Shown here piece by piece: positions 41,201 through 56,635 of a DNA stretch of 64,000 nucleotides (the first letter of the stretch is position 1; every line of letters begins with the position of its first letter). This DNA comes from Pseudomonas fluorescens. Its GTDB lineage: Bacteria; Pseudomonadota; Gammaproteobacteria; Pseudomonadales; Pseudomonadaceae. The stretch covers positions 2,915,001 through 2,979,000 of the forward strand of contig NZ_CP015637.1 of assembly GCF_001708445.1 (NCBI RefSeq), in the 5' to 3' direction. Position numbers and translations under genes: made by a program. The notes below the pieces were generated by a model. The model did not search any database. It was not told where the DNA came from and saw nothing but the letters and a program-made list of their open reading frames with translations.

Positions 41201-41459
41201 GCATCTGGCCGCAAACGCTATTGACGGTGCCCAAGCGGGCCTGGCCGATAGCTGTGGCCAGGTCTATACGTCCATTTTCAAGCAGCCAGGAGCGGGCGCG
41301 TTCGCGCAGCTCGGTAGCCGCCTTCACGGTGAAGGTCGTGGCCAAGATGGCGTGAGGGCGCGCTGTGCCCGATTCGAGAGCTTGAGCGAGTGTTTCGGTC
41401 AGCTTGTAGGTCTTGCCACTGCCGGCGCCTGCACTGATGAATTCGATGCTGTTCATCAT
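38283..41459 (-). CDS. UvrD/AddA-like helicase-nuclease
   Basis: A 1058-residue superfamily 1 helicase. Motif I is A-G-A-G-S-G-K-T (about 9-16), motif II V-D-E-F-Q-D-T-S, motif III G-D-P-K-Q-A-I-Y-G-F-R-G and motif V T-Y-H-G-A-K-G-L-E-W. A C-terminal PD-(D/E)XK nuclease shows G-R-I-D-L-L-V then L-V-D-H-K-S. It corresponds to the AddA/RecB architecture. It overlaps the upstream nuclease gene by 4 bp and has a GGGAGG ribosome site before two Met codons. Pseudomonads use RecBCD for chromosomal repair, so this island-borne pair is accessory, possibly antiphage; that role is inferred. Confidence 0.88.
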   Translation of the reverse strand: MMNSIEFISAGAGSGKTYKLTETLAQALESGTARPHAILATTFTVKAATELRERARSWLLENGRIDLATAIGQARLGTVNSVCGQMLKRFCFELGLSPDQTVLGEGQSKRLLKATLAESMEADAQTELVRLTERFGIEQADWSKTVEAVVKAALDNDIGPEELRVMGSQNADAMLTNWPAPATGLDPTEALATALAEAHKGVAAYVEQQQAVGAKVADNLLKGLEGLQKLDRLFREGRWCWPDWIGAAGFDAGAKVRDIVAPVKSAAQVHESHPAFHAEVRQYLDQIFNLAADVLNAYEQAKKALGAVDFSDQEVLLLRALRTKPSVREVLAAELDLIMVDEFQDTSPLQLALFIELAKLAKKSVWVGDPKQAIYGFRGTDASLISGVLNAIKGWGGILGKVLDTSRRSNESLVSLTNGLFISAFEPELTPEQVRLQPLRKDIPDQPALLNWNFESSRNDSDYLCLGQAIRELLESGAKVEDKDTKELRPIQSGDIGVLCRYNDQVEFAVTSLTHWGIPSASPRSGLLGTAEAIYVMACLRRMSDPTDTVATALVLTLADSTPIETWLADRLQHLATDETKPYEWLTTGDSAHKLIARLETLRPTLMALTPLEVLRLAAAESQVARLVGQWSTSPHESRNRMSNVEALVELGKTFEDECVAAKRPATVSGMLRWLDELASQEDDNRATSADNAVSVLTYHGAKGLEWPVVVLTSLDAIARTSLWGVRARTVGDFDPQQPLANRFVHCWLKTWGKRSQPQAALNAEASVTGQAMQAEALAENKRLLYVGLTRARDMNVALSFVRRSGPGRAWVGEIKGAAELLFGDSEIITTSEGKQLSRLSKSWNKDECSTEPPAKAPEACHWFTTRPRVQAEPLWHRPSSASGGAFTVVETDAVGVRLSLAGKPDMASLGTALHLCIARAGVLGGISPPDVEGILKTWAVAGSVDKDAVCTQTSAFQAWIAKRWPDCPVYVEVPIEADGPNGTRIRGRIDLLVELPDGWILVDHKSNPAGSARDDDLIALHGPQLESYGHALLSATGKPVSQRWLYFPVAARAVRLS

Positions 41460-44074
41460 TTCCAGCCTCCCAGCAAGATAAGGTGGTCTCGGTCCCATTT
41501 GTTTGGACCGTTGACCGGAAGGGTTCCCTCAGGGCCTTGGAACTCGTCACTCGGATCTTCCGGAACGACTTCGATGGTCCCCGCATCCAACTGCTGTTTG
41601 CGCCACTCCCACGTGGTGCGGGCACGGTCTAGTAGGTTGGAGACGGTTACGCCGTCGGGCGGTCTTCTGACTTGCGCTTTTGGGAAAATGTCGGCAGCGG
41701 TGATGTACAGTCCGCCGCTTTCTAGGATGAAATAGCCAAGCGCGGCGGGTGCGACACCGCTTGTTTGCTCTATGAGGCTGGAGTAGAGCGCCAACTGTAA
41801 GTGCTCACCAGAGCGAAGCAGCCCGGCGTAGTAGGTATCGCCTCTCCACTTTATGTCCAAGGCGACAGTTCGCTTGTCACCAAGCGTGACCAAGAGATCA
41901 ATTTTGCCGATCAGCGGAACTGCTCCCAAGGTTCCTCTGAACTCCACTTCAGTCTGAACCTGAATGGCACCTGCGAGCCTGAGGTGATCGAGGAGACTCC
42001 CTATGGCTCGTTCGCAAACCTTCCGGAAGTGTTGCTGCGTTACCCCCGCACCCTGCATAAGCAGTACAGCGCCTTCAGTCAGCAACAGCGAGTCGGCTTC
42101 GGCGCGGAACCAAGCAATGGCATCGGCGTTTGACCAACTCAAGGCATTGTTGTGCGCGAAGAGTTTCTCGAGCACCCGATGAGCGAGGATGCCCAGCAGG
42201 CGGTTGCCCTCATCAACCCCCAGGACTGAAGTAGGATCTAGCTTCGCCACTCGTTTCAAAACGAATAGAGCCGCGTCATTGAAGAGCTCGTTGAGCGTAG
42301 TAAACGACTGTGAGGCGTCGCCGAGCTGCACGGGATGAGGGAGTTGGATGTGTCGTGGAATAGCGGGCAGCGCCTGAGGTGCAAGCACCTCGGCGGTTAC
42401 CCCGAGAAGCGTGGAGTTGAGTGCAGTGTCCAAGTCAAGCGAAGTGGACTCGATATCCGGTACGAGCTTCTTAATAAGCTGGCGAATCGGATGTATTTCT
42501 GTACCAGGAGGAGGGCAGACGATGATGAATCTTTTTCTCGCGGCAAGTAGTGGCCGCAGCCACTTCAGTGCTAACGACACGAGTTCACGCGCCGGGTCTC
42601 GCAACTGCACACCTGATTGAGTCAGAGCGTTCACCTCGGCAGGAGACCAAGGTAGAGGCGAGGGCAGGGCAGGCGTCGACGGCATCCACCAGATCACTTC
42701 ATCAGCTGCTTCGATGCACGCGGCTGCCGTACTGGTCGAGCGCATGCAACCAACTTGGGAAACCGCAGTGGGGTCGGTTGCTCCGGCGGGTGTGGCGTGG
42801 GCAACCAACTGCTCAACTTCTCGAGGCAATAGCGTAGCCATACCTTGCCGAGCCAGCTCGATTAACGCTTCTTGAACAGCCGCACATTGGCTATGCGCCG
42901 CAACAAAGCTTGCCGCGTCAGCGGGCTCACCTGAGAGGCGACGCCGCATAGCCTCCTGCATCCGATCGACACGAGCAATCAGTGCATCTAGCGGCACGCC
43001 AACTGTGCGTGACCAGCGCTCTGACTCCAGCCAGAAGGTGATTTCATTTGTCACTTCCTGGGCATCGTCACCTGCAGCGATCCTGTTCTTGACCGTCGTC
43101 CAAGCTTCGCCGCCTATCCCGGGTTGGTTGGCGACAGCGCGTGCGAGCTTGCTTCTCGCAGCGCGACTGAATGGGCCGACCGGATGGGTCAGGAAGTCCA
43201 ACAATCGGTTCATGTCCACTGGGTCCCAGCACAGCTCCAATGCAAGGGATAGAGCCTGAAGGGCTGGGCGGAGCTGACTAGGGCGTTCGAACCCGCAGTT
43301 GACGTTGCCAGTCACGGACAGCGATACGTCCAACGAGTCTCCAGCCTCCTCGGCCAAGATCATTCGGTCTTCGGGCATGTGCGCGTGTTGCATGCTTAGC
43401 CAGTGTTCGGCAGTAGTGGCTGCGAGGGTGTGTACCAGCAAAACGCTCCCGTCGGTCTGCACGGCCAAACTCCCCGCAGAGCCTCCGTTCAGTACGGTCA
43501 GGGCGTGCTCCTGCACCTCGCGAAGTTGGCCTGCTCCCTGTGGTTCAGGAAGGCGAACTTCAACCTCGGGTAGGTAATCCAACACCTGTTGCCAGAGGCG
43601 CGGGAAGTCCTCCGGCGGGTCAACCAGGTGAACTGACTTGATGGGACCAGGGCCGGAAGCACTCAGAGTGTATATCACCAGATGCAAGCGTTCGGCCTCT
43701 CCTGGCGGTAGAGCTGCGAGAGCGGCGTTTTCGACGGCTGCAAGGTCCTGGATTCGCGGTGGGTGCTCCGGGTTCGCGCAACCGTCCCAGCCGCCAAGCC
43801 GCCACTCGTCACGCCAAGCAAGGAGGCGCGCGGCCGTACCGATACTGTCGACTTTCAAGGACTCACTGTAGAAGCGCGAGCCGTTGTCATTGGCCCGCAG
43901 CAGACCAGAGTAGATGGTCACGCGTCTGGCCGCTGAGGCTTCTGGCGCGCTTAGACCAAGGTAGGTCTCCAGCAGTGACAGAAAACCGAGGCGACCGACT
44001 ATCGGGCTATTGAAGAAGTTCGTTGGGGACGGTCCCTGACGGGCATCCAAGAAAAGGCCAAAAGTGATGTGCAT
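41456..44074 (-). CDS. AddB-like protein with C-terminal PD-(D/E)XK nuclease
   Basis: An 872-residue protein. The C-terminal part carries a RecB-type nuclease core: the E in Q-T-E-V-E-F, D in G-K-I-D-L-L-V and D-I-K in A-L-D-I-K-W. The N-terminal two thirds resemble a degenerate helicase-like AddB region, with no clear Walker A. The start at 44074 (MHITFGLFLD) fits this family better than a 25-residue upstream extension. It is translated just before, and overlaps, the helicase-nuclease gene, the usual addB-addA order. Confidence 0.8.
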   Translation of the reverse strand: MHITFGLFLDARQGPSPTNFFNSPIVGRLGFLSLLETYLGLSAPEASAARRVTIYSGLLRANDNGSRFYSESLKVDSIGTAARLLAWRDEWRLGGWDGCANPEHPPRIQDLAAVENAALAALPPGEAERLHLVIYTLSASGPGPIKSVHLVDPPEDFPRLWQQVLDYLPEVEVRLPEPQGAGQLREVQEHALTVLNGGSAGSLAVQTDGSVLLVHTLAATTAEHWLSMQHAHMPEDRMILAEEAGDSLDVSLSVTGNVNCGFERPSQLRPALQALSLALELCWDPVDMNRLLDFLTHPVGPFSRAARSKLARAVANQPGIGGEAWTTVKNRIAAGDDAQEVTNEITFWLESERWSRTVGVPLDALIARVDRMQEAMRRRLSGEPADAASFVAAHSQCAAVQEALIELARQGMATLLPREVEQLVAHATPAGATDPTAVSQVGCMRSTSTAAACIEAADEVIWWMPSTPALPSPLPWSPAEVNALTQSGVQLRDPARELVSLALKWLRPLLAARKRFIIVCPPPGTEIHPIRQLIKKLVPDIESTSLDLDTALNSTLLGVTAEVLAPQALPAIPRHIQLPHPVQLGDASQSFTTLNELFNDAALFVLKRVAKLDPTSVLGVDEGNRLLGILAHRVLEKLFAHNNALSWSNADAIAWFRAEADSLLLTEGAVLLMQGAGVTQQHFRKVCERAIGSLLDHLRLAGAIQVQTEVEFRGTLGAVPLIGKIDLLVTLGDKRTVALDIKWRGDTYYAGLLRSGEHLQLALYSSLIEQTSGVAPAALGYFILESGGLYITAADIFPKAQVRRPPDGVTVSNLLDRARTTWEWRKQQLDAGTIEVVPEDPSDEFQGPEGTLPVNGPNKWDRDHLILLGGWK

Positions 44075-44508
44075 GCTGCGCTGACTTCCTTGACGGCAAT
44101 CGAATGCAGGTGTCCTATTGCATCTTGTTCCCCTGCTCCTAGTCGACAAGACTAACCGAAAGTCAGCATTCGCGTACCGTTATTGGCCTCTGTTTGACTG
44201 ATTGAAGGAGCGCCACCACTTGGCAACCATTTACTGCAACCTCGCAAGAAATATCGGTTTTCCGTCACGCACTGGGCGCCGTTCGCTCTGGATGAATCAC
44301 CGCCTACAAGCATTGGCTGTGGTGGTTACGCACTAGAATGGAAATAGCACGGCCTATTCGCGCAGACTGGAACGCGTGCAAGTTGCCAGCACATGGCTTA
44401 CCTCGCCCTGGACTGTACGCAGAGCGGGCTGAATGAGCATGAGTTCGAACAATCTTGCGCCTCACTATAATAAGATGTGAAACCAGCCGGGGAGTGGAGC
44501 CTAGCCAC
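44075..44508. other. Gap with a relic of a recombinase gene
   Basis: No intact gene is seen in 434 bp. At 44253-44293 a 41-base stretch matches 55592-55632, inside the first tyrosine recombinase gene of this island, at 37 of 41 positions and in the same orientation. Further similarity fades on both sides. This looks like the remnant of a second, older recombinase module. The rest must include the promoters of the AddB-like gene and the HEPN-motif gene. Confidence 0.55.
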
Positions 44509-45240
44509 ATGGAGAAGTACACGTTTATTGATCGGTATTTTCACAGCCAGCGCGAACTGTTGGACATCAGGCATTCTGAAGAGCGGGACATCAACACGCT
44601 GTTTACCTACCTGAATAACCTCCACTCTACGGCTGATAAGCTGCTTGAGCTATTCAACTGCAGCATCAAAACTGCTCCAGAATTCAAAATACTCCGGCTT
44701 ATCAGAAACTATTTTCACCATGTCGGCGACGTTGACGAAATTCGTCTCCGTGTCAAGGTCGAGGAAAATGTTCTCGTTAGCCATTCGCAACACCTTCTAA
44801 TACCACTAGAAGTGCTCGCAAAAAGCGTGAAATCATTTATCGATAACACGATACCTGACGAAAAAAACAAAAATTACAAAGCCAAATTGCGATTCATTCA
44901 AAGGGAAATGAGTAATATCGCTGAGATCTTCGACTACGCCGCAAATCTCACGAAAGACCTCGAAATGTTCTGCCAAAAGCCTAGCCTAAGGCTTGACGGA
45001 AGGGTCTACGAACTCGGATTTGATATGTACAAATTCGTTTTCAACATTACGAATACTATTGCAGACAAATGCCGAGAAATCCCAGAGCTACGCGAAAAGA
45101 AGGTAATCCTGGAGCTCGATTGGTCTTATCGCGCTGAAAACAACATTGGCAAACACGACGTTTTTTGCAGCCCGTCCAACGTACCAATCACCACCACCGA
45201 AGGCTTCGTATACGCTAAGGACATTGATCTGGTTCGTTAA
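44509..45240 (+). CDS. Hypothetical protein with HEPN-like RNYFHH motif
   Basis: A 243-residue, largely alpha-helical protein with no known family recognised. Residues 66-71 read R-N-Y-F-H-H, fitting the R-x4-H motif of HEPN ribonucleases, and lie at the end of a helix as in those proteins. No signal peptide or membrane segment is apparent. The start at 44509 (MEKYTFIDRYF) has a GGAG site some 12 bp upstream, a little far; an earlier in-frame start at 44455 is possible. It lies in a defence island between the AddAB-like pair and the ubiquitin-like locus. Confidence 0.6.
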   Translation: MEKYTFIDRYFHSQRELLDIRHSEERDINTLFTYLNNLHSTADKLLELFNCSIKTAPEFKILRLIRNYFHHVGDVDEIRLRVKVEENVLVSHSQHLLIPLEVLAKSVKSFIDNTIPDEKNKNYKAKLRFIQREMSNIAEIFDYAANLTKDLEMFCQKPSLRLDGRVYELGFDMYKFVFNITNTIADKCREIPELREKKVILELDWSYRAENNIGKHDVFCSPSNVPITTTEGFVYAKDIDLVR

Positions 45241-45283
45241 CTTGCTTGCTGTGAACCGCCTGCGTTTGCAGCCCGCGGAAGCA

Positions 45284-45550
45284 ATGCGCTGGTTCGACAA
45301 CTCACTGGATTTTCAATCGCGGTTACCAACCCCTCGAAATTTGGTGGTGTCGGCGTACGCGGAAGGTTTCATCTACCTGTTCCGCACCGACGCTTCTGCG
45401 CTGACATTCACTCGTATTGTGGCGCAGTGGCAAAACACGATGCGCCCGTTATGCCGGCTCACTCTCATTGGCCTGTTCCTGGCCAGTGGCGGTTGCTTCT
45501 TGTGGTTTGTCTTCCTACAGCTGAAGATTCTCCTGCCGAATCTGCTTTGA
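45284..45550 (+). CDS. Small putative membrane protein
   Basis: An 88-residue reading frame with one strong C-terminal hydrophobic segment (L-T-L-I-G-L-F-L-A-S-G-G-C-F-L-W-F-V-F-L). It starts 43 bp after the HEPN-motif gene with a GCGGAAG ribosome site at 45284. No family was recognised. It may be a real partner of the upstream gene or a degraded fragment; confidence is low. Confidence 0.35.
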   Translation: MRWFDNSLDFQSRLPTPRNLVVSAYAEGFIYLFRTDASALTFTRIVAQWQNTMRPLCRLTLIGLFLASGGCFLWFVFLQLKILLPNLL

Positions 45551-45572
45551 GTTGCTGTCTGACGAAGTCTCA

Positions 45573-45595
45573 GCGGCAGGCAGTGAGCCTGCCGC
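45573..45595. terminator. Hairpin between convergent genes
   Basis: GCGGCAGGC (45573-45581) and GCCTGCCGC (45587-45595) form a perfect 9-bp GC-rich stem with a five-base loop. There is no T run. It lies between the ends of two convergent genes, so a transcription-stopping role is plausible. Confidence 0.5.
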
Positions 45596-45621
45596 ATCAA
45601 ACTCCCAAGCAAGAACCTAAT

Positions 45622-46161
45622 TCAGGCTTGAGGGGAGGTTGGAGTGGGCGGTTTGACCGGCTCCGCCTCACCAGCCCGAGTCTGTCCACTCCGGGTTTTA
45701 TCAATGCCCCACACCGCCTTCGCGACCTCCTCAATTTTCGCCACGAACTTGTCGACGTTGAAGCCGGCTATGAAGGCCAGTGCGAAAAATCCAATTTCGC
45801 TTGCTCCGGCGTTCGCGGTCGACTCCAGTACCAACAAGCCTGCCTTCAAGAAGAGGTAGCTCACCGCACCGGCGATTGTGCTGGTGATGGGGCGGATGAA
45901 ATACCAGACGTGCCAGTCCGGATCCCAGCGCTTGTGGACGCACTTGTTGAGGTAAATCGCACGGAAGCAGTACAGGGCACCGCCAACGTAGGCGATCGCG
46001 CCACACATCAACGGCACTCTCAGAGGCCTATAGGGCTCAGAAAGCCAACCCAGAGCCATCGCACCGATGGAGTAGGTCGCGAAGACCAGAAGTGCCAGCA
46101 GATAGATGATGATGACGATCGTCAGATCTGTCTTTGGCTTGGCTGAAGTGGTTTCACTCAT
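45622..46161 (-). CDS. Multi-pass membrane protein of the E2-E1-JAB/MBL locus
   Basis: A 179-residue protein with about four hydrophobic helices (near residues 13-37, 48-66, 86-106 and 112-132) and a hydrophilic, proline-rich C-terminal tail after a charged segment (K-I-E-E-V-A-K-A-V-W-G-I). The start at 46161 (MSETTSAK) overlaps the WYL regulator stop by 8 bp, so the two are co-transcribed. No family name is recognised. In CBASS-like systems compact multi-TM proteins often act as membrane-damaging effectors, so it is a candidate effector by analogy only. Confidence 0.8.
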   Translation of the reverse strand: MSETTSAKPKTDLTIVIIIYLLALLVFATYSIGAMALGWLSEPYRPLRVPLMCGAIAYVGGALYCFRAIYLNKCVHKRWDPDWHVWYFIRPITSTIAGAVSYLFLKAGLLVLESTANAGASEIGFFALAFIAGFNVDKFVAKIEEVAKAVWGIDKTRSGQTRAGEAEPVKPPTPTSPQA

Positions 46162-47029
46162 CTTCTGCTGACTCCTTGCGAGCATTCTCAATCCGAAGCA
46201 TCACAATCTGCTGATGCTCACTGACCGGGTCGCCTGGCTTCACATTCAGGTTCAGCCGGCGGTTTAGGTAATACAACTGTGGCTTGCGAGCTCTGAGCCG
46301 AGCTTCGCCATTCACCATCTGGTAATCGTGCTCGATTGCTTTTTGCTTTTGTGGCGGGTAGCTCGGATTCGGGCCGATCACCACATCGATGAAGGTCTCC
46401 CATTCAACGTCCTCTGGCACCTCTGAAGGAGGGGCAAACGAAGTCTTCAGGGCATTGATGCGACCTAAAACGAAATCCTTGAATATCCCTGACTTGAAGC
46501 AGAAGGCGCGGGTGTGCCAACGAAAGCCGTCATGGGCGAACGATGTGGGGAAGATAGTCCGAACAGCTGGCTCGTCGAAATTGGTCATTGATCGATAGTC
46601 GACGTCCACTGCCTCGCCTGCCTGGAGCGCCCTGATGAGCTTGATCAGGATCTGTTGATCAACCTGCCTCATGGGAGAAGGTAGGTTCGCCACTGGGGGC
46701 GCCCAGCCGATGAAACTATCCGTTGGGGCGATATTGCCTATGCCACGCTGCTGTAGCTCATTTAGATAGTGCGCTGGATCCGGGTTGGTCAAGACGGGTT
46801 TGAAGTCAGGGCCTGCCACGTACGCTTTCAGCGTTCGGTCATAGGCCATGTTGTCAGGAGCGAGTTCTTGATAGGTCGCGAAATCCAATGACGCTTGAGG
46901 AACAGAAATCCCAAAAAAAATGGTCAGGTCTGAGCGATTGAGTTTTCGCTCCCACAGCAGCCGAAAATCTATAAATTCAAGGCGGCGTTCCTGGCCCCAG
47001 CGTCCGGTACGAGTAGCGGTAGCAGTCAT
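46154..47029 (-). CDS. WYL-domain transcriptional regulator (CapW/BrxR-like)
   Basis: A 291-residue protein with an N-terminal winged helix-turn-helix (about 10-70), a WYL-type central domain (V-D-V-D-Y-R-S-M-T then F-R-W-H-T-R-A-F-C ... F-V-L-G-R-I) and a C-terminal extension. This is the layout of the CapW/BrxR family, which represses defence operons such as CBASS and BREX until triggered. It is divergent from the MBL/E2-E1-JAB genes and precedes the membrane protein, so it probably controls both directions through the 130-bp gap. Confidence 0.87.
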   Translation of the reverse strand: MTATATRTGRWGQERRLEFIDFRLLWERKLNRSDLTIFFGISVPQASLDFATYQELAPDNMAYDRTLKAYVAGPDFKPVLTNPDPAHYLNELQQRGIGNIAPTDSFIGWAPPVANLPSPMRQVDQQILIKLIRALQAGEAVDVDYRSMTNFDEPAVRTIFPTSFAHDGFRWHTRAFCFKSGIFKDFVLGRINALKTSFAPPSEVPEDVEWETFIDVVIGPNPSYPPQKQKAIEHDYQMVNGEARLRARKPQLYYLNRRLNLNVKPGDPVSEHQQIVMLRIENARKESAEDE

Positions 47030-47054
47030 CTGAAATCAGCCTGGTAGGTAATTG

Positions 47055-47117
47055 GTATAAAAAATATTCGAATAGTATCTAGACGGGTTGAGTTTCTATA
47101 CGTATCTTACAGTATCT
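47055..47117. promoter_or_regulatory. Divergent promoter with GTATCT repeats
   Basis: The AT-rich gap between the WYL gene and the MBL gene contains GTATCT at 47075, 47102 and 47112 and a TATAAAAAATAT stretch from 47056. The last two repeats are 10 bp apart, one helical turn. They are candidate operator elements for the WYL regulator, which is inference. Confidence 0.4.
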
Positions 47118-47159
47118 GTAGCATTTCTCAAAGATGGCCCAGTGCCCGGGGAGGGATAT

Positions 47160-48350
47160 ATGGCTGCCAAGGTGACGTTTTTTCAAGTGGGTACGGGTGA
47201 CATGACGTTGATCCGGTTGGCCGATACGTTGGTCACCACCATTCTGATTGACTCGCGGATCCGCCAGGCTGCGGACAACCCAGACGATGACACTCCTGAC
47301 GTGGGCAGGGCATTGCGAGAGCGGCTGCAGTGGGATGCCAAAGACCGCCCATTCGTCAACGCCTTCCTATTGAGTCATCCTGACCAAGACCACTGTGCAG
47401 GCCTGAGAAATCACTTCTGGCTTGGCGATCCTGCGGACTACCCTGACGACGGCAAGGATCGTTGGGAGAGGCGGATTTTGATCCGTGAAATGTGGTCGTC
47501 GCCTCTGGTATTCCGTCGGAGTTCGAAGAACCACATCCTCTGTGACGACGCGAAAGCTTTCGATAAAGAAGCGCGGCGGCGAGTGATCTACTGGCGCAAT
47601 TATCGCATTGCAGGTGATGGGAACCGCATTCGCATCATGGGCGAAGACAACCAGGGGAAGACTGACGATCTTGGCCCAATCCTGGTTAAAGCCGGCCAGA
47701 CTTTCAGCCAGATCGCAGGTGAAAACCTTCCGCAGTTTTTCACCTCGCACCTGCTCGCACCGGCACCGCATGAAGATGATGCGGATCTTGAAGAAGACCT
47801 GACAAAAAACGAATCGAGCGTGATCATGAATATTCAGATCTCGCCGTCGGCTTACTCGCAAACCAAAACCAAATTCCTTGTTGGCGGTGACGCTGAGGTA
47901 TTGATCTGGGAGCGGATGTGGAGTCATTACGAGTCCACGCCCGAGGTGCTTGAATATGATCTGCTCCTAGCTCCGCACCACTGTTCCTGGCACACGCTTT
48001 CGTGGGACAGCTGGTCGGGCAAGGGCGAGAACGCCAAGGTAAGTTGGGATGCCCGTCAAGCCCTGAGCCAGGCACGCAATGGTGCAACGATCGTTTCCAG
48101 CAGTGTTGAGATTCTCGACGATTATTGCGATCCACCCTGCATCCGGGCGAAGCGTGAGTATCAGGGCATCCTGGACGAAGTTGATGGTTGGTTCTCTTGC
48201 ACTGGGGATCTCGGTGAGAAGGCTTGCATGGACTTCGAGGTTCGGTCGGATGGTAAGGTCAAACTGCTGGCCGTTGCTGCAGCGCTTGCTGGAGCTGTAC
48301 CGAGTTCCGTAGCGGCGTCGATTCCGCCACGCGCTGGCAAGTTCAAATGA
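47160..48350 (+). CDS. Metallo-beta-lactamase-fold hydrolase paired with the E2-E1-JAB protein
   Basis: A 396-residue MBL-fold protein starting M-A-A-K-V-T-F-F-Q-V-G-T-G-D. The metal motif is S-H-P-D-Q-D-H (residues 72-78), with a later A-P-H-H-C-S-W. A hydrophobic alanine-rich tail (L-L-A-V-A-A-A-L-A-G-A-V) precedes the end. The start at 47160 follows a GGGAGGG ribosome site. The stop overlaps the start of the E2-E1-JAB gene (ATGA), so the two proteins are made together. Substrate unknown: a nucleotide, nucleic acid or peptide phosphodiester role is typical for the fold. Confidence 0.85.
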   Translation: MAAKVTFFQVGTGDMTLIRLADTLVTTILIDSRIRQAADNPDDDTPDVGRALRERLQWDAKDRPFVNAFLLSHPDQDHCAGLRNHFWLGDPADYPDDGKDRWERRILIREMWSSPLVFRRSSKNHILCDDAKAFDKEARRRVIYWRNYRIAGDGNRIRIMGEDNQGKTDDLGPILVKAGQTFSQIAGENLPQFFTSHLLAPAPHEDDADLEEDLTKNESSVIMNIQISPSAYSQTKTKFLVGGDAEVLIWERMWSHYESTPEVLEYDLLLAPHHCSWHTLSWDSWSGKGENAKVSWDARQALSQARNGATIVSSSVEILDDYCDPPCIRAKREYQGILDEVDGWFSCTGDLGEKACMDFEVRSDGKVKLLAVAAALAGAVPSSVAASIPPRAGKFK

Positions 48351-50572
48351 TCGATTACTACGAGCTCGGTGAGGTTTTGGACTGTGCAGATGAGGATCAC
48401 CTCTATCCCCATACCCAGGCACTCCTCAAAGCTTTACGTGCTTGTCCCTACACCGATGTTCGAGAAATCAGGAAGGACAAACCAGGGACGATAATCAGCG
48501 AATACATTGTCATCGATGCCGGCGACGGTACAGTGGATTCGGGTAATCTCGGAGGAGTCAGGCGACGCGAGCGATTGGCGGTCGGTGTAAACCCCGACTT
48601 CCGCGTGCCGGTAGTAGTCTACACGCTGCGCAAAGACTTCCCTGTGCTGTCGCACCAGCATCCACCTTCCATAGGCGGGGCTAGGGTGCTTTGTCTGTAC
48701 GACAGCAATTGGTCGACGGTCGAGCGAACCTGGACGCCGGAGCGTTTCATCGCTCGAATGTTCTGGTGGTTGCGAGAGTCTGCTCTGTTGAAACTGCACC
48801 GGAGTGATCAGCCGGTTGAGCAGCTTTTTTACATGAGCCCTTACCAGCTTATCCTGCCTTCCAACTATACCGATTACGCAAAATCGGGTAGCAACACGTT
48901 GACCATTTGCAAAGTGGATGTAGGTGACTCGATCATCTTGAGGGCCGATCCCACTCGGCCAGGCGACCAGTCGAAGCTGGTCAGGATGGTCTCAATGGTG
49001 GTCAATCCTGTGGGATCCCCAACGTTGGCTCGCTATCCAGAGACCTTGGGTGATCTGCATGATCAACTCGTAAGCTGGGGCAGCGACCTCTATCAGTCGC
49101 TTCATGCGACCGTTTACGACGCCATTGAAGGCGGTGTTTCTGCTGCTCCCGCCCAAGGCCAAGGTGTACTCATTACTGTCTGGATTCCGCGCGTACGCGA
49201 CGGCGAGGCTGAACGCTTTGACGTAGCTGGGTACATGCTGGACGTCTCTCTGTTTGACCTAGCAACGGCCCTAGATATGCTAGGCCCCCCTGATTCGAAA
49301 GGGCTGAGTCACCGTAGCGTGATCCTCGGTGGAGCTGGCAGTATTGCCTGGCGATTGATCCCGCTCATGTCGGTAGAAGTTCGAAGTGCTCTCACAGCCA
49401 AAGTCGCTCGTGATCTATCGGGCACCCCTGAGGAGAACAGTGACATCCAAGGCGTCCTGGCCGGGGTGGGGGCGTTAGGTAGCGTGTTGGCTGATCTATG
49501 GATTCGCCAAGGCTGGGGGCGGTGGACGTTCATAGACCCTGATCGGGTGCTGCCTCACAATTTATGCCGCCATGTGGCGTTCGATTTATACATTGGCCGG
49601 CCAAAGGTCAACGTAGTGAGGGATCTGGCTGTAGAAATCTTTCCGAACTGGGATCCACCCAAGGCAATTGCCAAAAGCATACTTGAGGATACCGAGGAGA
49701 TCGCCTCGTCGTTGAGCGTTGCCCAAATCTTGGTGGATGTAACGACAACGTTGGAGGCACCACGTGAGCTCGCCCGTAGACCGGAAGCTCCCCGCACCGT
49801 GAGCTTGTTCGTTACACCTTCAGGTCTCTCAAGTGTGATGATTCTCGAAGATCAGGACAGGCTTCGGCGCATTGACGGTCTGGAGGGACAGTACTACCGA
49901 GCGATACTGGAAAACGAGTGGGGTCATCAGCACTTGGCCCAGCCTCTGGGGGATCGCTGGGTGGGCGGTGGCTGTCGTGACATTTCGGTAAGGATGTCGG
50001 GTGAATCTATTCATGGTCATGCAGGAATTCTTTCCAGGCAGCTTCGGCAGTCAGTCGCCAAGTCGCAGGCAAGGATTTGTGTCTGGGAATCAGATGACCG
50101 ATCCGGATCAGTTACCGCTCATGAGATCGACACCGCGCAAGTGCATACTGCGCAATCATCTGGCTGGACGGTGAAGTACGACGAGTCACTGGTTCAGAAA
50201 TTGTACACCGCTCGACAGAAGGCCCTTCCGAACGAAACGGGTGGCGCAATCCTCGGCGTCACGGATCTCAAAACGAAGACGATTGTCATTGTTGACGTTC
50301 TGCCGGCACCGCCGGACAGCGAGGCCAGTCCGAGCCATTTCATTAGAGGGCAAGAGGGCCAGGCAGAAGCGCTGGAGGTAGTACACAAGCGTACTGCTGG
50401 CATGGTGGATTATGTGGGCGAATGGCATTCGCATCCCGACGGTTGTCCGGCTCGCCCGAGTGAGCTCGACGAGAATTTGCTGAGTACCCTGCATAGGCAG
50501 ATGAGCGTTGAAGGATTGCCAGCGCTGATGGTGATCGCTGCCAAAGGTGCTGTAGGGATCTTTGTGTGTTGA
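48347..50572 (+). CDS. E2-E1(ThiF)-JAB triple-domain ubiquitin-like conjugation protein
   Basis: A 741-residue fusion. Residues about 1-170 look like a prokaryotic E2 fold: H-P-P ... L-C-L-Y-D with Cys116 as candidate thioester cysteine, then W-x8-F-I-A-R-M-F-W-W-L. A linker/inactive domain (about 170-320) follows. Residues about 325-580 are ThiF/E1-like: G-V-G-A-L-G at 373-378, F-I-D-P-D-R at 396-400, N405/R408, and Cys543 in G-G-G-C-R as candidate catalytic cysteine. The C-terminal JAB protease has Glu630, H-S-H at 694-696, Ser705 and Asp708. CBASS Cap2/Cap3 and Bil systems use the same three activities on separate chains. No ubiquitin-like protein or nucleotidyltransferase is recognised nearby. 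Confidence 0.88.
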   Translation: MIDYYELGEVLDCADEDHLYPHTQALLKALRACPYTDVREIRKDKPGTIISEYIVIDAGDGTVDSGNLGGVRRRERLAVGVNPDFRVPVVVYTLRKDFPVLSHQHPPSIGGARVLCLYDSNWSTVERTWTPERFIARMFWWLRESALLKLHRSDQPVEQLFYMSPYQLILPSNYTDYAKSGSNTLTICKVDVGDSIILRADPTRPGDQSKLVRMVSMVVNPVGSPTLARYPETLGDLHDQLVSWGSDLYQSLHATVYDAIEGGVSAAPAQGQGVLITVWIPRVRDGEAERFDVAGYMLDVSLFDLATALDMLGPPDSKGLSHRSVILGGAGSIAWRLIPLMSVEVRSALTAKVARDLSGTPEENSDIQGVLAGVGALGSVLADLWIRQGWGRWTFIDPDRVLPHNLCRHVAFDLYIGRPKVNVVRDLAVEIFPNWDPPKAIAKSILEDTEEIASSLSVAQILVDVTTTLEAPRELARRPEAPRTVSLFVTPSGLSSVMILEDQDRLRRIDGLEGQYYRAILENEWGHQHLAQPLGDRWVGGGCRDISVRMSGESIHGHAGILSRQLRQSVAKSQARICVWESDDRSGSVTAHEIDTAQVHTAQSSGWTVKYDESLVQKLYTARQKALPNETGGAILGVTDLKTKTIVIVDVLPAPPDSEASPSHFIRGQEGQAEALEVVHKRTAGMVDYVGEWHSHPDGCPARPSELDENLLSTLHRQMSVEGLPALMVIAAKGAVGIFVC

Positions 50573-50647
50573 TTCACCAAGCACCCAGGCCCACTGCTCG
50601 TCAGTAGCCATGAGATGAACCTTTTGGCTAATAGAGGAGGCAGTGGG

Positions 50648-50815
50648 ATGATGCCTCCCGCCGTCGGGGTAGAAATCGTATTTTTCTCTATCGGGCGAAC
50701 TCTGGTGGGGGAATGCGTTGACGGCGTGATCCAGCAGGTTTTCTCATCACCCCTTTCAAGCGCTCAGCAGGACCTTCTAACTCGGACGGCGACTGAATCG
50801 CCCTGCGTTTTGTAG
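50648..50815 (+). CDS. Small ORF downstream of the E2-E1-JAB gene
   Basis: A 55-residue reading frame starting at two adjacent Met codons 8 bp after a GAGGAGG ribosome site. The sequence (V-G-V-E-I-V-F-F-S-I-G-R ... V-D-G-V-I-Q-Q-V-F-S-S) has beta/alpha character but no di-glycine end. GGAGGCA (50637-50643) and TGCCTCC (50652-50658) can pair and would hide the ribosome site and start codon. Function unknown; it could be chance coding. Confidence 0.35.
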   Translation: MMPPAVGVEIVFFSIGRTLVGECVDGVIQQVFSSPLSSAQQDLLTRTATESPCVL

Positions 50816-50952
50816 ATACCTCGCTTCCCTAAACTGAGGCCGAGTACGAGGAGCCCTAAGCAAGCCGCGTCTGGTTGAAAACACAACGGCGATAAAAGGG
50901 TGAATACGAGGGAACGTCTTATGAGAGTTCAGAGCAATACAGCAGAAAGGCA

Positions 50953-50976
50953 AAAGCCCGGTCGTTACCGGGCTTT
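50953..50976. terminator. Terminator-like hairpin
   Basis: AAAGCCCGG (50953-50961) and CCGGGCTTT (50968-50976) form a perfect 9-bp stem with a six-base loop. The stem base ends in T/A runs of three to four, so a bidirectional terminator is plausible between the converging MBL/E2-E1-JAB and recombinase transcripts. Confidence 0.65.
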
Positions 50977-51196
50977 GCAGATCCCTCAAGGGGAGGTAAA
51001 GCTGAAGTGCCTCAAGGGCTACAAGCCAAACTCTACGAGCGGTTGGCGCTCATGTCAACGCTCTGCGTGTAGGTCGAAGTAGTTAGGATATGTGTACCGT
51101 AATGTGTAGTCGTCAGAGCTGAGACAGTCCTGTCTAGCACTGTGGGCAGGTTACCATGCCGCAATCTGTAGTCGATACGAAGACTACTAATCTTAT

Positions 51197-51595
51197 CTAT
51201 TGGGTGTTTCTCAACGGTGCCATAACTGACTCTACGTCCAGACCGTTCATGAGGCAGTTGTGTGCTATCACTGACAGAGCCTCGAAAAGCTTGTCTCGCT
51301 GTATTGCCAACGCAGCGTTCTCCGCTTGAAGACTTGCAATACGCTCTTCGAGACTCCTGCGCCGGCGGGCACCATCCGGATCCCTCCCGCTTTCCCTCAT
51401 TTGAACAACACGAGCGGCCTCAATTCTGTCTCCACGGTCACCTCCTAGCGTAGCTCGGCTTGTCAGGCCCAGCCGGCGCTGCACCTCCGGTCGGGAAATG
51501 GGAGCGAGCTCCACTCCTGAGCTAATCATCTGGGCGAGGAGAGCGTCTATTGCTTCGTCAAGAGTGCCGCCCCTCAATGTCTGTCGTCGCGTCAT
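51197..51595 (-). CDS. Small coiled-coil protein of the recombinase module (TnpC-like)
   Basis: A 132-residue protein with a basic N terminus, an HTH-like stretch (S-R-P-E-V-Q-R-R-L-G-L) and a C-terminal coiled coil (R-R-S-L-E-E-R-I-A-S-L-Q-A-E-N-A-A-L). Its size and place after the recombinases resemble TnpC of Tn554-type transposons or the small third component of mobile recombinase trios. It starts 8 bp after the stop of the last recombinase, in the same transcript. A role in orientation or efficiency of integration is known for Tn554 TnpC; here it is inferred. Confidence 0.65.
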   Translation of the reverse strand: MTRRQTLRGGTLDEAIDALLAQMISSGVELAPISRPEVQRRLGLTSRATLGGDRGDRIEAARVVQMRESGRDPDGARRRRSLEERIASLQAENAALAIQRDKLFEALSVIAHNCLMNGLDVESVMAPLRNTQ

Positions 51596-51603
51596 AATTG
51601 CCC

Positions 51604-53718
51604 CTAGTCATCTGAAACCGAACTGTGTCGTTTGTCCGAGTCCGCAACCGTCATTGGACGCCCACTTTGAAACACGCGTTGTACACCTGCATTGGTGTCG
51701 CGTGCTAGGACGGATTTTAGATTATTGAGTTTCTCCTGTTGGTCCGCCAGCCATACATCGCTGCCTGCCTCTCCGGCGCCGGCATCGCGCATGATAGTAA
51801 TTGCGGCCGTAAGATTTTCGGCTTGTTTCTCAAGGTTCGTCCGTTCCGATGGAGTGCCCATCAGATGGAGATGCGAGCAGCCATTCCAGCACTGAAGATG
51901 CTTAGGGCAGGGCGCTTGGGAGAAGTCGTGAATGCAACCTCCAAAGGGTGTCACGTGCAGCGCCGTTGCGTGTACGGTGAGGAATGCTTCTGCCGTGATC
52001 GTGCCTTTATCTGACAGCAGCGCATGGTAACTGTCGGTCAAAGCGCCCTGGATGCGCTTATCTCTTATGCCCGTATGTAGAAAGTCAATACGCTCGTGAT
52101 GACTATTAAACGCCAAGAACTCTTGATGGGCAGCAGTATCTTCTTCAATGCTTGTGTGTTGGTAATAGACATTCTGGTCTATGCGTTTTCGACCAAGGGC
52201 CAATGCCTGCTGAACATTACTCATGCCTGTAAGATGGTAAATAGTATTTCGCCAGTGGCGCGGTTGATGACTAGTTAGCTTGATCGGCGTCCCGTCCGCC
52301 TCCAATAATGAACGGCGCGAGAATATGGACGAGAATTGCGGATCCGCACCGAGAGCCCGGTTGATGTCAGCCAACATGACTCGCCGCGGTACGGCACGGA
52401 ACACATTGCTCTCACGGCCACCTAAACGAAATTGGCCGTCAAACGCAATTGCAAGCGTTTCGCTAGTTGTAAGTACTTTCCGAGGCATACCACCGAAATT
52501 CTCCGTTAGCACCTCATGACCGCGCAACTTAGGAATGAGTAACTTTTCAATCTCACCGGCTAGGTACCTCCGCCTCCTAGCTTCAGTGCGTTTAAGCTTT
52601 GTTTCATCGTCGAATGGGGCAACGCCATTTCTAGAAAGATACAAGTAGAGATTCCGACCTGAGCTTAACCCGTCACTAAATCCAAGCCACTCGAGAACTT
52701 GATTTTCAGTCAGAATTGCCTGCGGCGAGTAATGCCAAAGACGTCCCGGATTGGCTTCTTGCCATCTAGCGATTTCTCGCTGTTCATGCGTCAGTACCTT
52801 GAGTCGTTTGACTGCACGCCTAGCTAGAGGAATGTCACTTTTTGCAAACCAATGAACACGAGATTGAAAATGTTTTTCCGCAAAATATCTGATTCCACAT
52901 TCGATCAGACGCTTGCCATTTGCATCTACAACTACCTCGCCTGTTGCTCCTTTGATTGGCCTTTCGACCCAACAGTCAAAAGGAATTACCGCTACCTCGT
53001 TCCCCCTTTGGCCTGTCGCGATCAGTAAATCGATAACTCGCAGCAAGATTTCTTCGCCGTCATTAAGTGGGTTATTCGAGCAAAGGGCGTAGGCCTCCAT
53101 CGCCTCCCGAGAGGGTAGCCTCTCGTCAGATTTACGCTGTTTTACATCACGATCAGGATCATGCAGTGAAATGTAATCGTGACGACGCTTTTCTGGTTTT
53201 GCATCGTGTTCAAAGTGGATGGCGATCTCGGTTAATTGCAGGCTATCAATCGTATCGGCTACTACTTGAAGATGAGAGATCGCGTCGTACAGATTCTTGT
53301 AACCACTTCGGCTGAGGAACTCTACGACGCGATCAAAATCGCCTCTTGTCAACTCTGTTGGATCAGATGCGCCGCGCTCAAATAAGGGGTTGTACAGCCG
53401 CCGTATAGCAATATTGTATGCAGCCACCATCGAAAACTTCAGGCTCCGGGTGCGCTGTAAATACACAATCAGGGCCTTGTTAAAATCTTGGAACACGAGG
53501 GGGAGTGGGCCCTTCGCCGGAGAAGGATAGCCCGTTTTTTCGAGTGCTTGTCGGTGCGTCTCGAAGGTGAGCGTATTTTGCTTTCCCCGTTGCGGTAACC
53601 AGCCTCCGACGCCCCATAACGATGACGCCCACAGTGTTGAAATCGGTAACGAATGGAAAATCGCTTGTTCTTGTGTAACAAAACCTTCGAGGCGTTGATT
53701 TGCTCTAGACAGCGTCAT
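51604..53718 (-). CDS. Large tyrosine recombinase (TnpB-like)
   Basis: A 704-residue protein with a tyrosine-recombinase core in the middle: Arg in A-T-G-Q-R-G-N-E-V, then H-Q-P-R-H-W-R and the tyrosine in Q-N-V-Y-Y-Q-H-T. A long C-terminal extension has a cysteine/histidine group (C-I-H-D ... C-P-K-H-L-Q-C-W-N-G-C), probably zinc-binding. This resembles TnpB of Tn554-like elements. The start at 53718 follows GAGG at good distance and overlaps the preceding recombinase by 14 bp. Confidence 0.82.
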   Translation of the reverse strand: MTLSRANQRLEGFVTQEQAIFHSLPISTLWASSLWGVGGWLPQRGKQNTLTFETHRQALEKTGYPSPAKGPLPLVFQDFNKALIVYLQRTRSLKFSMVAAYNIAIRRLYNPLFERGASDPTELTRGDFDRVVEFLSRSGYKNLYDAISHLQVVADTIDSLQLTEIAIHFEHDAKPEKRRHDYISLHDPDRDVKQRKSDERLPSREAMEAYALCSNNPLNDGEEILLRVIDLLIATGQRGNEVAVIPFDCWVERPIKGATGEVVVDANGKRLIECGIRYFAEKHFQSRVHWFAKSDIPLARRAVKRLKVLTHEQREIARWQEANPGRLWHYSPQAILTENQVLEWLGFSDGLSSGRNLYLYLSRNGVAPFDDETKLKRTEARRRRYLAGEIEKLLIPKLRGHEVLTENFGGMPRKVLTTSETLAIAFDGQFRLGGRESNVFRAVPRRVMLADINRALGADPQFSSIFSRRSLLEADGTPIKLTSHQPRHWRNTIYHLTGMSNVQQALALGRKRIDQNVYYQHTSIEEDTAAHQEFLAFNSHHERIDFLHTGIRDKRIQGALTDSYHALLSDKGTITAEAFLTVHATALHVTPFGGCIHDFSQAPCPKHLQCWNGCSHLHLMGTPSERTNLEKQAENLTAAITIMRDAGAGEAGSDVWLADQQEKLNNLKSVLARDTNAGVQRVFQSGRPMTVADSDKRHSSVSDD

Positions 53719-55225
53719 CTGCAGCATCCTCAGTTTGTTGCCGGCAGCGCTCGATCGTAGCGCTAACCGCGAGAATGGTTGTCTGATGCTGGGCCAGGGG
53801 CCGGTTGTGAATGATATCACCGGCTAGTTCTGCCATATCAATGAACCGTTGGACCTCTCGCTGGAGCGCATCCTTTACCTGCTCATGGCGGCCGTCAGCA
53901 AAGGGGTGGAACTTCTTGCAGGTGTAGCACGCGTATATAGGATTGTAGGGGCAGTGGGTATGGACGGGCAGGGCGCAGGCACCAATATCGCCTATGTACT
54001 GCGTATCAATGACGCCTCGGACGGCTCTTTCAGGAGCAGTATCGCGGCGTTGGACGATTTTCCCCGTTAGTAAACTGCGCATGATACGTTGATAGGCCGG
54101 GCTCTTCCCCAGTGCTTTCTCTTTGATACGGGCAATGTTGGGGGTGGCCGTTACGTAAGCACGCGCCGCAACCGTGCTGTTGTGTCCGAGCAGTTCGGCA
54201 ATCATGTCTGCCGGAGTACCCTGATCCGCCAGGCCTTGCCCGAGGTGATGACGCAACAATATGGATACCTGATTCGGCCTATCTATACCAGCTTCACCCA
54301 GCTCGTGTTTGAGACCTGAACCGATTTCGCTAACCGAGAGACGCCTTCCACAAGGATTGACAAATAATGGTTCACAGTCGCTACCAAAACGGTGTTGAAT
54401 TTCTAGAATGTGGCGTGAGATTTTCACCCCCAGGCGCGAGGTTATTTTACGGGGGCGCCGCTCAGGTCTGAGTTGGCCAACTTTTTTGGCCATGGGTAGC
54501 CACAGGGTGTAGTACTTCTCGTGATCAGCGCTTTCAATAAACTCAAAATCAGCAATGTCTAGCGAATGAAATTGAATCGATCGAGGTGCGAGTTCGAAAC
54601 CTAAGTGAAGTACTATATTAAACTGGACATCCTCCCAAGAGTCAGTCAAAGATTGTCGTTCAATGCGTTTAAGCAATAGAATTTCCTCATCGAGTTCCAA
54701 GCCTGACTGAGAGAGAAAAATTCGAGAGTAGGGAGATGAGCGTTCGGTTTTGAAGTCCTTGATCTTTAGATAAATATCGTTACTAAATCCGGCAATTCCT
54801 CTATCCATTACCCAGCGATAAAGCGTGCGAAAGACGACTACGTACTCTCTTGAGCTGTTCCAACTGTTGAATGCACTAATAATTTCGTCGGCTGCCCAAG
54901 GGAATTTCAAGGAAATATCACTTTCCGAAACCCGATGGAGCATTCTGGCGGCCCTATATGCAGTTGAAGGGGAGTATTTCTCTAACATATGTGCCATAAA
55001 TGCCTTTGCTATTTCGACAAACTCCGAGCTCAACTTTAGACCAGACCAATCAATATTCATTGCCGTTCCGCCGTCGTACCACGTCCAGACGTTCAATCGA
55101 GTATCGACATACTTTGGCTGGTCATTAGTGCGAGTCCGAATCGTAACGTAAGCGGGCCCCCTGAACACGTAAGCTGGAAAAGAGGAGGCCGGTGATGCGT
55201 GTTCTTGATCGGCTGATTTGGTCAC
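53705..55225 (-). CDS. Tyrosine recombinase, second of three
   Basis: A 506-residue recombinase-like protein with a core-binding helical domain and a catalytic domain: Arg in E-L-A-P-R-S-I-Q-F, L-L-R-H-H-L-G in place of the usual HxLRH box (the first His is not conserved), and L-L-G-H-N-S ... A-Y-V-T. A C-terminal cysteine cluster (C-A-L-P-V-H-T-H-C-P-Y ... C-Y-T-C) may bind zinc. Coupled to both neighbours: 11 bp after the first recombinase and overlapping the third. Confidence 0.8.
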   Translation of the reverse strand: MTKSADQEHASPASSFPAYVFRGPAYVTIRTRTNDQPKYVDTRLNVWTWYDGGTAMNIDWSGLKLSSEFVEIAKAFMAHMLEKYSPSTAYRAARMLHRVSESDISLKFPWAADEIISAFNSWNSSREYVVVFRTLYRWVMDRGIAGFSNDIYLKIKDFKTERSSPYSRIFLSQSGLELDEEILLLKRIERQSLTDSWEDVQFNIVLHLGFELAPRSIQFHSLDIADFEFIESADHEKYYTLWLPMAKKVGQLRPERRPRKITSRLGVKISRHILEIQHRFGSDCEPLFVNPCGRRLSVSEIGSGLKHELGEAGIDRPNQVSILLRHHLGQGLADQGTPADMIAELLGHNSTVAARAYVTATPNIARIKEKALGKSPAYQRIMRSLLTGKIVQRRDTAPERAVRGVIDTQYIGDIGACALPVHTHCPYNPIYACYTCKKFHPFADGRHEQVKDALQREVQRFIDMAELAGDIIHNRPLAQHQTTILAVSATIERCRQQTEDAADDAV

Positions 55226-55236
55226 GGCGTACCTCC

Positions 55237-56490
55237 TTAACTGTCAAGTCGGCTCCAGGCTGCCGAGGTGCGCTGGGCATTGTGGAGGTTGGCCGACTCG
55301 GCTAGATAACGACCTGCGTAACGGCGTGGCATAGTCGAGGTCTCAGACCAACCGCAGACTCGCCGTAGTTCGTCCGTGGCCAGCTCGAGGTCATGCCCAC
55401 GCTTTTCGATCAGGTAAGCCAAAAAGTGGTCTGCAAAGGTGTGGCGAAAGTCATGCGCAGAAAGTGTAGGCAACAATCCTGGATGAGCCAGCTCAATGGT
55501 CAGAAACAGCCGATCAAGAACGTTAGACAACGCGCGGATCGACAGCGGGCGGCCACGATCCGAGATGAACAAATAGCGATACAGCAATTTCATCGGTTTA
55601 CCGTCACGCAGAGGGCGCCGGTCGCTCTGGATATAGCGCTCGTAGACCTCATACAACTGTGCGGAGATGCCTACGGTCCGCCCATGTGTTTTGAGCGCAG
55701 GCTCTTCAATGCGCGGGTCGCGGGGATCATGTTCGCGATCATTGATGCTGACATAGGCGTGCTGAGACCCTTTATTGATATCCGTGGTGTAGAGCTTCAG
55801 AAGCTCTCCGCGACGGATGCCGGTCTCCAAGAGCAATTCAATCATTAGCCAGTTACGCAGTTGCAAACGTTCTGGGAACGGATTCTCCGCAGCGCCAGGG
55901 CGAATCAGTGTGCGAACGATCTGTAGTTGCGTATCTGTCAGGCTGCGGTAACGAGTGCGGTCGGGACGAGCATTGATGATATGGCTCTCAAAGCGCCGCT
56001 CAATGACGTCAGCTACATCGGCAAATACCACGTTGATGTCAGCCTGTGTGGCTGAATTCTGACGGGCGCGCGGGATGTAACGGGTGACGCACCAAGACAG
56101 GTATTTCTTCAGCAGGCGCAGGTACTGGTCACGTGTTCGTGAACTGATCTGCTGAAAAAGTACAGTGCCAGGTTTGCCGATTCGGGCGATCAGATTATCG
56201 GCATGACGGCCACTTTGGAGCCAAATAGCGTAACCGTCCAGCAAAGCCAGAATCGCCTCAAAGTGGCAGGCCAAAATGGCCTCATCGATATCCATATCTC
56301 GGCTTTTGGCATAGGCGTAGAAAGCCTGGATCGCGCGCAGGTGCGCCGCAGCCGTGTTGTAAGCGCGGTGCCTGAGTTTGAGTTGGACGTAGATGAACGG
56401 AATGAGTATGGGCAACGGCGTCGCATCACCAGCTTGTACAAGCAGCGGTAGTCGTTGACCTGAAGAGAAACGGCACTGAATCAGTTTCAT
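55237..56490 (-). CDS. Tyrosine recombinase, first of three (TnpA-like)
   Basis: A 417-residue integrase with intact catalytic boxes: T-G-I-R-R-G-E-L (first Arg), H-D-F-R-H-T-F (His/Arg) and R-R-Y-A-G-R-Y (tyrosine). The start at 56490 (MKLIQCRF) follows a GAGGTGG ribosome site. It heads the leftward operon of three recombinases and a small coiled-coil protein and lies beside the presumed end of the island. A 41-base relic of a related gene exists at 44253-44293. Confidence 0.87.
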   Translation of the reverse strand: MKLIQCRFSSGQRLPLLVQAGDATPLPILIPFIYVQLKLRHRAYNTAAAHLRAIQAFYAYAKSRDMDIDEAILACHFEAILALLDGYAIWLQSGRHADNLIARIGKPGTVLFQQISSRTRDQYLRLLKKYLSWCVTRYIPRARQNSATQADINVVFADVADVIERRFESHIINARPDRTRYRSLTDTQLQIVRTLIRPGAAENPFPERLQLRNWLMIELLLETGIRRGELLKLYTTDINKGSQHAYVSINDREHDPRDPRIEEPALKTHGRTVGISAQLYEVYERYIQSDRRPLRDGKPMKLLYRYLFISDRGRPLSIRALSNVLDRLFLTIELAHPGLLPTLSAHDFRHTFADHFLAYLIEKRGHDLELATDELRRVCGWSETSTMPRRYAGRYLAESANLHNAQRTSAAWSRLDS

Positions 56491-56635
56491 CGACAGCCAC
56501 CTCATTCAAGGAATCGTCATGAACACTATGGACATGGCCCGTTGAGAGAGTAGACGTCAAATACGAATTCGTCGAATCAGTGACTTACGTGGCTTATGAA
56601 CATATCTGACATAGCACCTGATTTAACATAATATA
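56491..56635. other. Presumed right terminus of the mobile island
   Basis: This AT-rich stretch between the first recombinase and the 176-bp repeat contains the perfect palindrome ACGAATTCGT at 56563-56572 and promoter-like AT tracts. In recombinase-trio elements the recombinase operon lies next to one end, so the element border and core crossover site are probably here or at the edge of the repeat. The exact border cannot be seen without an empty-site sequence. Confidence 0.45.

Follow-up and report, generated by a model that had tools for sequence, protein, structure and literature searches.

An E2-E1-JAB fusion beside an MBL-fold enzyme in Pseudomonas fluorescens: a possible CBASS-like antiphage operon with a hydrolase in the place of the CD-NTase

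When a bacterial locus encodes the E1, E2 and JAB activities of a ubiquitin-like conjugation machinery, and neither a CD-NTase nor a ubiquitin-like protein is recognised beside them, which protein is handled by this machinery, and to what end? The question is raised by four genes of Pseudomonas fluorescens (contig NZ_CP015637.1) lying in the stretch of 64,000 nucleotides analysed here (the window, positions 2,915,001-2,979,000 of the 6.64 Mb genome). An E2-E1-JAB fusion is encoded there together with a metallo-β-lactamase (MBL)-fold enzyme and, on the opposite strand, a WYL regulator and a protein with four transmembrane segments (4-TM protein). These genes had been placed by an earlier reading of the letters alone (the original prediction), and the list of open reading frames (ORFs) agrees with that placement, including the 4-bp overlap between the MBL ORF (47088-48350) and the fusion ORF. 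The best reading of the locus, held with moderate confidence, is that of an antiphage operon resembling the cyclic oligonucleotide-based antiphage signalling system (CBASS), in which an MBL-fold hydrolase would take the place of the CD-NTase.

A named gene pair with additional partners

The core pair of MBL enzyme and fusion already has a name, the 6A-MBL anti-phage system of NCBIfam, "anti-phage" being the label given by that library. The fusion reaches 672.6 bits against NF058523 (anti-phage 6A-MBL cap2_3, cut-off 320), and the MBL protein 398.5 bits against NF058524 (anti-phage 6A-MBL MBL enzyme, cut-off 220). This arrangement was described in 2006 as an E2-E1-JAB triple-module protein adjoining a metallo-β-lactamase, usually in two genes (row 6a, PMC1779556). 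Thus, the original prediction, which had no defined function for an MBL-linked form, has to be corrected, and an undescribed operon type is ruled out. Searching the literature for the name "6A-MBL" returned no paper, and no description of the mechanism of the row 6a type was found in the literature searched, some relevant papers lying outside that search. The window differs from the usual two genes in the addition of a CapW-like regulator and a 4-TM protein, and the available text of the 2006 description does not mention the C-terminal tail and the partner slot discussed below.

The catalytic residues named for the fusion in the original prediction proved correct, and the three modules are intact. 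Prok-E2_A (residues 69-174), ThiF (370-471) and Prok-JAB (613-732) are all above their Pfam cut-offs, and PADLOC returns E1-E2 and JAB matches. A genome scan yielded 178 relatives among 211 candidate stretches, the best 80 of which, not all of them 6A-MBL, were kept (loci are designated by L numbers). Across an alignment of 80 fusions, some of them near-duplicates, no change is seen at H103, C116, G373, G375, G378, D397, N405, R408, K420 and C543 of E2 and E1 or at H694, H696, S705 and D708 of JAB, while E630 is present in 79 of the 80. For G691, W693 and both JAB histidines, conservation is in part a product of how the sequences were picked, because the peptide pattern of the main scan contained G[ET]WH[SN]H.

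In the MBL enzyme, positions H73, D77, H78, D244, H273 and H274 (numbered from the ATG at 47160) are the same in all 50 proteins compared; from the MBL fold, these are the probable metal ligands. The best solved-structure matches of its profile are of ComEC type, although two of the five matches are repeat proteins and look spurious, and the PADLOC match to LmuA is weak (34 bits). It is likely, judging from the sequence, that this protein is a metal-dependent nuclease or phosphodiesterase. Hachiman, Avs, Lamassu and DRT systems contain MBL proteins that are predicted to be nucleases and have a protease as partner, and HamM cleaves DNA once it has been proteolysed (PMC12799240). With HamM, Avs1a, LmuA and ComEC the window enzyme shares the ligand positions and, for LmuA and ComEC-type proteins, a weak profile likeness. 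However, the HamM group has a trypsin-like protease as partner, and none was found by Pfam among the nine neighbouring proteins of the scan described next.

That scan compared the nine proteins encoded at 41456-55225 with Pfam, PADLOC and NCBIfam, smaller ORFs lying outside it, and reported neither a CD-NTase nor a ubiquitin-like protein among them, as the original prediction had it. Type II CBASS has the same E1, E2 and JAB activities in separate Cap2 and Cap3 proteins, here joined in one chain, and likewise combines CapW or helix-turn-helix (HTH)-ImmA/IrrE type regulators with a variable effector-type gene, but it has a CD-NTase where the window has the MBL hydrolase. Bil and Bub systems also have bacterial E1, E2 and JAB activities, and Bub operons can carry CapW (PMC13373217), but a ubiquitin-like modifier gene belongs to them.

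All four genes are under purifying selection against the closest named relative, Pseudomonas sp. ICMP22404 (L035), whose fusion is 87% identical in the genome scan: the ratio of nonsynonymous to synonymous substitution rates (dN/dS) lies at 0.06-0.17 (4-TM 0.139, WYL 0.084, MBL 0.060, fusion 0.166). Identities to this relative are 93.7% for the MBL, 91.8% for WYL, 91.0% for the 4-TM protein and 86.5% for the fusion, and to L036 69.7, 73.2, 84.5 and 60.6%, respectively; the 4-TM protein is thus the most conserved one against L036, but not against L035, where the MBL ranks first. The MBL probably starts at the ATG at 47160 (396 aa) and not at the first possible start, because the relatives and the GGGGAGGG stretch place the start there, and the 4-TM protein probably starts at the ATG at 46161, giving an 8-bp overlap with the WYL gene (Table 1).

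Table 1. Features of the locus, in window coordinates.
Feature	Position	Strand	Basis or remark
4-TM protein gene	45622-46161 (first-start ORF from 46191)	-	ORF list, family alignment
WYL regulator (CapW-like) gene	46154-47029	-	PF13280, phmmer
Intergenic control region	47030-47159	.	Divergent promoters probable; alignment of relatives
6A-MBL enzyme gene	47160-48350 (ORF from TTG 47088)	+	NF058524
MBL C-terminal tail PPRAG-KFK	48324-48347 (conserved Gly 48336-48338)	+	Tail comparison
E2-E1-JAB fusion (cap2_3) gene	48347-50572	+	NF058523, Pfam, catalytic residues
E2 domain	48551-48868 (Cys116 at 48692-48694)	+	Within fusion
E1 domain	49454-49759 (Cys543 at 49973-49975)	+	Within fusion
JAB domain	50183-50542	+	Within fusion

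The C-terminal tail of the MBL enzyme

In type II CBASS, Cap2 conjugates the CD-NTase through its terminal Gly or Ala, a residue whose conservation is confined to operons encoding both Cap2 and Cap3 in full length; the loss of this residue abolishes conjugation, and Cap3 cleaves at it in a tandem fusion (PMC10097602). In another CBASS, the CD-NTase ends in Ala and its target is PspA, immunity being lost in E2, E1 and Ala mutants (PMC11153139).

The 6A-MBL enzymes have an ending of the same form. In 81 rows (L001 repeating the window and some others being near-duplicates), the C-terminus is an Ala/Ser-rich stretch closing on a conserved Gly as RxG, HG or YG, with one KAG. When L001 was left out and the remaining 80 MBLs were thinned to 65 below 80% identity, RxG, HG or YG was found in the last 12 residues of 64, the 65th (L057) being the one that ends in KAG. 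The same motif occurs in 51 of 698 other genes and in a mean of 5.3 of 65 shuffled sequences, and it is absent from four other MBL-type proteins; a fifth such row, itself a 6A MBL fragment, is not counted as a control. Among MBLs found later beside a fusion, 14 of 15 carry it, with 7/7 for plasmid MBLs keeping their 3' end, 4/4 for further plasmid MBLs (one repeating an earlier plasmid protein) and 3/4 for those from the class search, where L148 is the exception. It has to be noted that the MBL of L125 is split in two ORFs and its tail was taken from the second piece only, that L126, whose shortened MBL is followed by an annotated IS5 transposase gene, stands outside the tail count, and that the unfused locus L131 is not among the 15. 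No published description of this tail was found in the literature searched, earlier reports remaining possible.

Conservation ends at the Gly. Among 75 motif-picked tails, 42 stop there and 33 extend one to eight residues beyond it, with a high variety of residues directly past the Gly; in the window, PPRAG-KFK, three residues follow, and the tail stands on the MBL and not, as in CBASS, on a CD-NTase. These extensions suggest that the JAB domain trims a precursor, as in ubiquitin maturation. RxG and KxG tails occur only together with the JAB motif HSHP (47/47), and HG tails with several JAB motifs.

A natural exchange of parts between both systems is offered by L131, on an Aeromonas plasmid, in which a 6A-MBL enzyme (318 bits) ending in AYA is accompanied by Cap2 of CBASS type and a JAB protein, each encoded separately, and by a homolog of the window's 4-TM protein. 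On three plasmids with related Cap2 genes, the neighbouring CD-NTases end in ERYA, RYG and RHA. The Aeromonas 4-TM homolog does not mark a canonical CBASS operon, a possibility considered and ruled out: the gene annotated there as CobQ is a 6A-MBL enzyme above cut-off. The annotation of this gene (L131, 3422-4606), "cobalamin biosynthesis protein CobQ", is likely an error.

The likeness of the 6A-MBL tail to those of Cap2-conjugated CD-NTases suggests that the MBL, too, is linked to targets through its own C-terminus, in the way known for the CD-NTase of CBASS. This gives indirect support to the proposal of the original prediction that the E2-E1 module conjugates or primes the MBL protein, the conjugation itself being a putative step.

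The partner slot, the regulator and the explanations to be weighed

The 4-TM protein of the window has no match in Pfam, PADLOC or NCBIfam, and belongs to one recurrent partner family of 6A-MBL loci. When the distinct loci flanked on each side by 1.5 kb or more are counted, 43 of 49 have, by homology, a patatin or a member of one of five 4-TM families within 3 kb, a figure that stands for recurrence and not for independent enrichment because the partner families were built from these same neighbourhoods. A greedy ORF picker used instead of homology gave 40/49, one partner being a metallophosphoesterase, and missed the 4-TM genes of the window and L093; in a rough control, 86 genes encoding 120-320 aa and lying beyond 3.5 kb were examined, and 7 of them have at least three hydrophobic segments. 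Patatins occupy 11 of the 49 loci and the family of the window 7. A caspase-domain gene follows the fusion in L061, which has a 4-TM gene as well, and the fusion is followed by a metallophosphoesterase-family gene in L049 and by a second MBL-type gene in L066. The place of the window's family also varies, as it comes after CapW in the window, directly after the fusion in L040, L041, L084 and L114 and after Cap2-JAB in L131, and other 4-TM families fill the WYL-adjacent place in L045, L085, L086 and L090. A membrane effector, as the original prediction supposed the 4-TM protein to be, would fit such a variable slot. The slot was not found described in the literature searched, earlier reports remaining possible.

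The 4-TM families do not form one detectable family, since in hhalign only the pair of c2 and c11 reached 97%, the family of the window reaching at most 2.8% against the others. As a separate observation, a c2 protein adjoins a second, smaller MBL-type protein in L036 (2309-4085) and also in L037, L053 and L107, a pair that recurs beside or near 6A-MBL; one such MBL, in L006 (3680-4744), corresponds to PADLOC PDC-M48B (361 bits). In L065, the 4-TM protein, of family c19, corresponds to PDC-M48A (199 bits).

The WYL protein carries PF13280 and matches Stenotrophomonas maltophilia CapW (7TB6) over residues 5-289, near full length, with a phmmer E value of 2.7e-63, bearing out its earlier assignment as a CapW-like regulator overlapping the membrane protein gene. 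The region between the divergent gene pairs contains a block conserved among relatives (63% mean column identity over the 10 loci of alignment A4) and an imperfect 16-nt palindrome at 47055-47084; it is the probable site of a CapW operator and divergent promoters. Other CapW proteins release their promoters on single-stranded DNA or DNA damage (PMC13373217). Among the 49 loci, a WYL regulator is present in 13 and one of HTH or ImmA/IrrE type in 12, none being detected in 24.

With these elements, the following sequence of events can be proposed. CapW would repress the divergent promoters and release them on single-stranded DNA, by analogy with other CapW proteins. The fusion would then act as Cap2 plus Cap3: where extra residues follow the conserved Gly, as in the window, the JAB domain would trim the MBL tail to it, the E1 domain would adenylate this Gly and carry it on Cys543, and Cys116 of the E2 domain would take over the MBL and join it to a target, probably to a lysine, in a conjugation that JAB could reverse. 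The conjugation may prime or gate the MBL, the probable nuclease or phosphodiesterase, and the slot partner, here the 4-TM protein, would carry out or amplify membrane damage and may kill the cell. A more daring version, which we consider speculative and rather unlikely, takes 6A-MBL as a second-messenger system free of a cyclase, in which Gly conjugation would activate the MBL, and the cutting of a nucleic acid or nucleotide would give a diffusible signal for the slot effector (4-TM, patatin or caspase-domain).

Several points count against the CBASS-like reading. The tail motif was defined after the tails had been inspected, so that the tails found later matter more. The Gly is not universal, as the MBL of L148 ends in GFGSGFQ and that of L131 in Ala, and the association between tail type and JAB type could be explained by shared ancestry alone. 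Besides the way in which the partner families were built, six of the 49 loci (L044, L049, L060, L066, L096 and L102) have no member of the listed families. Moreover, at E 1e-3 no match was obtained between the 6A patatins and the two CBASS patatins compared with them, which are of a different family; this disfavours a trigger shared with CBASS.

Among the alternatives, the one that survives best, still an unlikely one, is that conjugation keeps the MBL off: in resting cells the enzyme would be fixed to the 4-TM protein, then an anchor or target and not an effector, or to a host protein linked to the membrane, until infection leads JAB to free a killer nuclease. In uninfected Bacillus cereus, the CBASS cyclase is found conjugated to PspA, which its authors propose keeps it inactive (PMC11153139), and in Hachiman and related systems the MBL proteins are pro-nucleases requiring activation (PMC12799240), both of which are in line with this alternative; yet the unrelated slot partners (4-TM families, patatin and one caspase-domain gene) resemble effectors more than anchors.

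It is improbable that the MBL is itself a modifier, in the manner of ISG15 or Bil, joined to phage structural proteins to block assembly, with a secondary role for the hydrolase site. Bil systems modify phage structural proteins, and a tail with an E1-E2-JAB set is what a modifier system needs, but a passive modifier would need neither the invariant ligand positions nor the recurrent partner genes. Similarly improbable is that the fusion acts on some other, unlinked protein, the MBL tail serving another purpose, for example to dock the MBL on the fusion: tails can be conserved without being substrates, but the end of conservation at the Gly, with variable residues after it, and the resemblance to CD-NTase tails beside related Cap2 argue for a substrate. 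Finally, that the 4-TM and WYL genes form an unrelated neighbouring module is very improbable despite their opposite strand and the low counts of WYL and the window's 4-TM family among the 49 loci, as the changing positions of the 4-TM genes described above speak against it, and so do four (the window included) of six matches to this family in 298 genomes of the genus, which adjoin WYL and MBL, one of the other two being truncated and one weak.

Distribution, neighbouring genes and significance

The cut-off for the fusion was passed in 6 of 398 genomes of a phylum sample and that for the MBL in 5 of 369 of a class sample, the genome of the window being counted in both. The complete set of 4-TM, CapW, MBL and fusion genes, which the original prediction joined in one system, recurs, also on one Escherichia coli and one Serratia plasmid; the lack of co-occurrence in other genomes, named there as a finding that would refute it, was not observed. 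The fusion matches 326 plasmid records, 206 of which, many of them enterobacterial, cover 80% of its length or more; 162 of the 326 are typed as conjugative, and the best matches among those listed are about 55-57% identical. For the 4-TM protein, 179 plasmid records give matches, all covering 80% of the query or less, and 178 of them are at 80-90% identity. The fusion has no match in phage records, eight IMG/VR contigs match, some only partially, and megablast against E. coli genomes gave no match.

Other genes of the window are of interest in their own right. A Septu pair was recognised by PADLOC at 32676-34732 (-), with PtuB (HNH, 240 bits) and PtuA (AAA ATPase, 433 bits), and a second MBL-like protein of 448 aa is encoded in a low-GC stretch at 35924-37270 (+), with PADLOC matches to RTasMBL (38 bits) and LmuA (35 bits) and Pfam Lactamase_B_2 below its cut-off. 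A UvrD-type helicase with a C-terminal PDDEXK domain and an adjoining PDDEXK protein, AddAB-like by eye, lie at 38283-44149 (-), followed at 44455-45240 (+) by a 261-aa protein with nothing above the Pfam cut-offs and no match in PADLOC or NCBIfam. At 29169-30697 (+), two overlapping ORFs look, by eye, like pieces of one IS66-type transposase. Downstream of the fusion, a small gene and three recombinase-like genes occupy 51197-56505 (-), two of the latter being above the Phage_integrase cut-off and the third without Pfam match. The one at 55237-56505 has an 80% match in L035; that the recombinases travel with the system on plasmids was considered and rejected, as no ORF of L123 or L124 matched at E 1e-10.

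If the CBASS-like reading is true, ubiquitin-like priming in bacteria would not be tied to cyclases, and one conjugation module would have been fitted to two unrelated enzymes, each provided with a Gly/Ala tail. Taking into account the 206 plasmid records that match at least 80% of the fusion, such a system may be relevant to how common bacteria resist phages.

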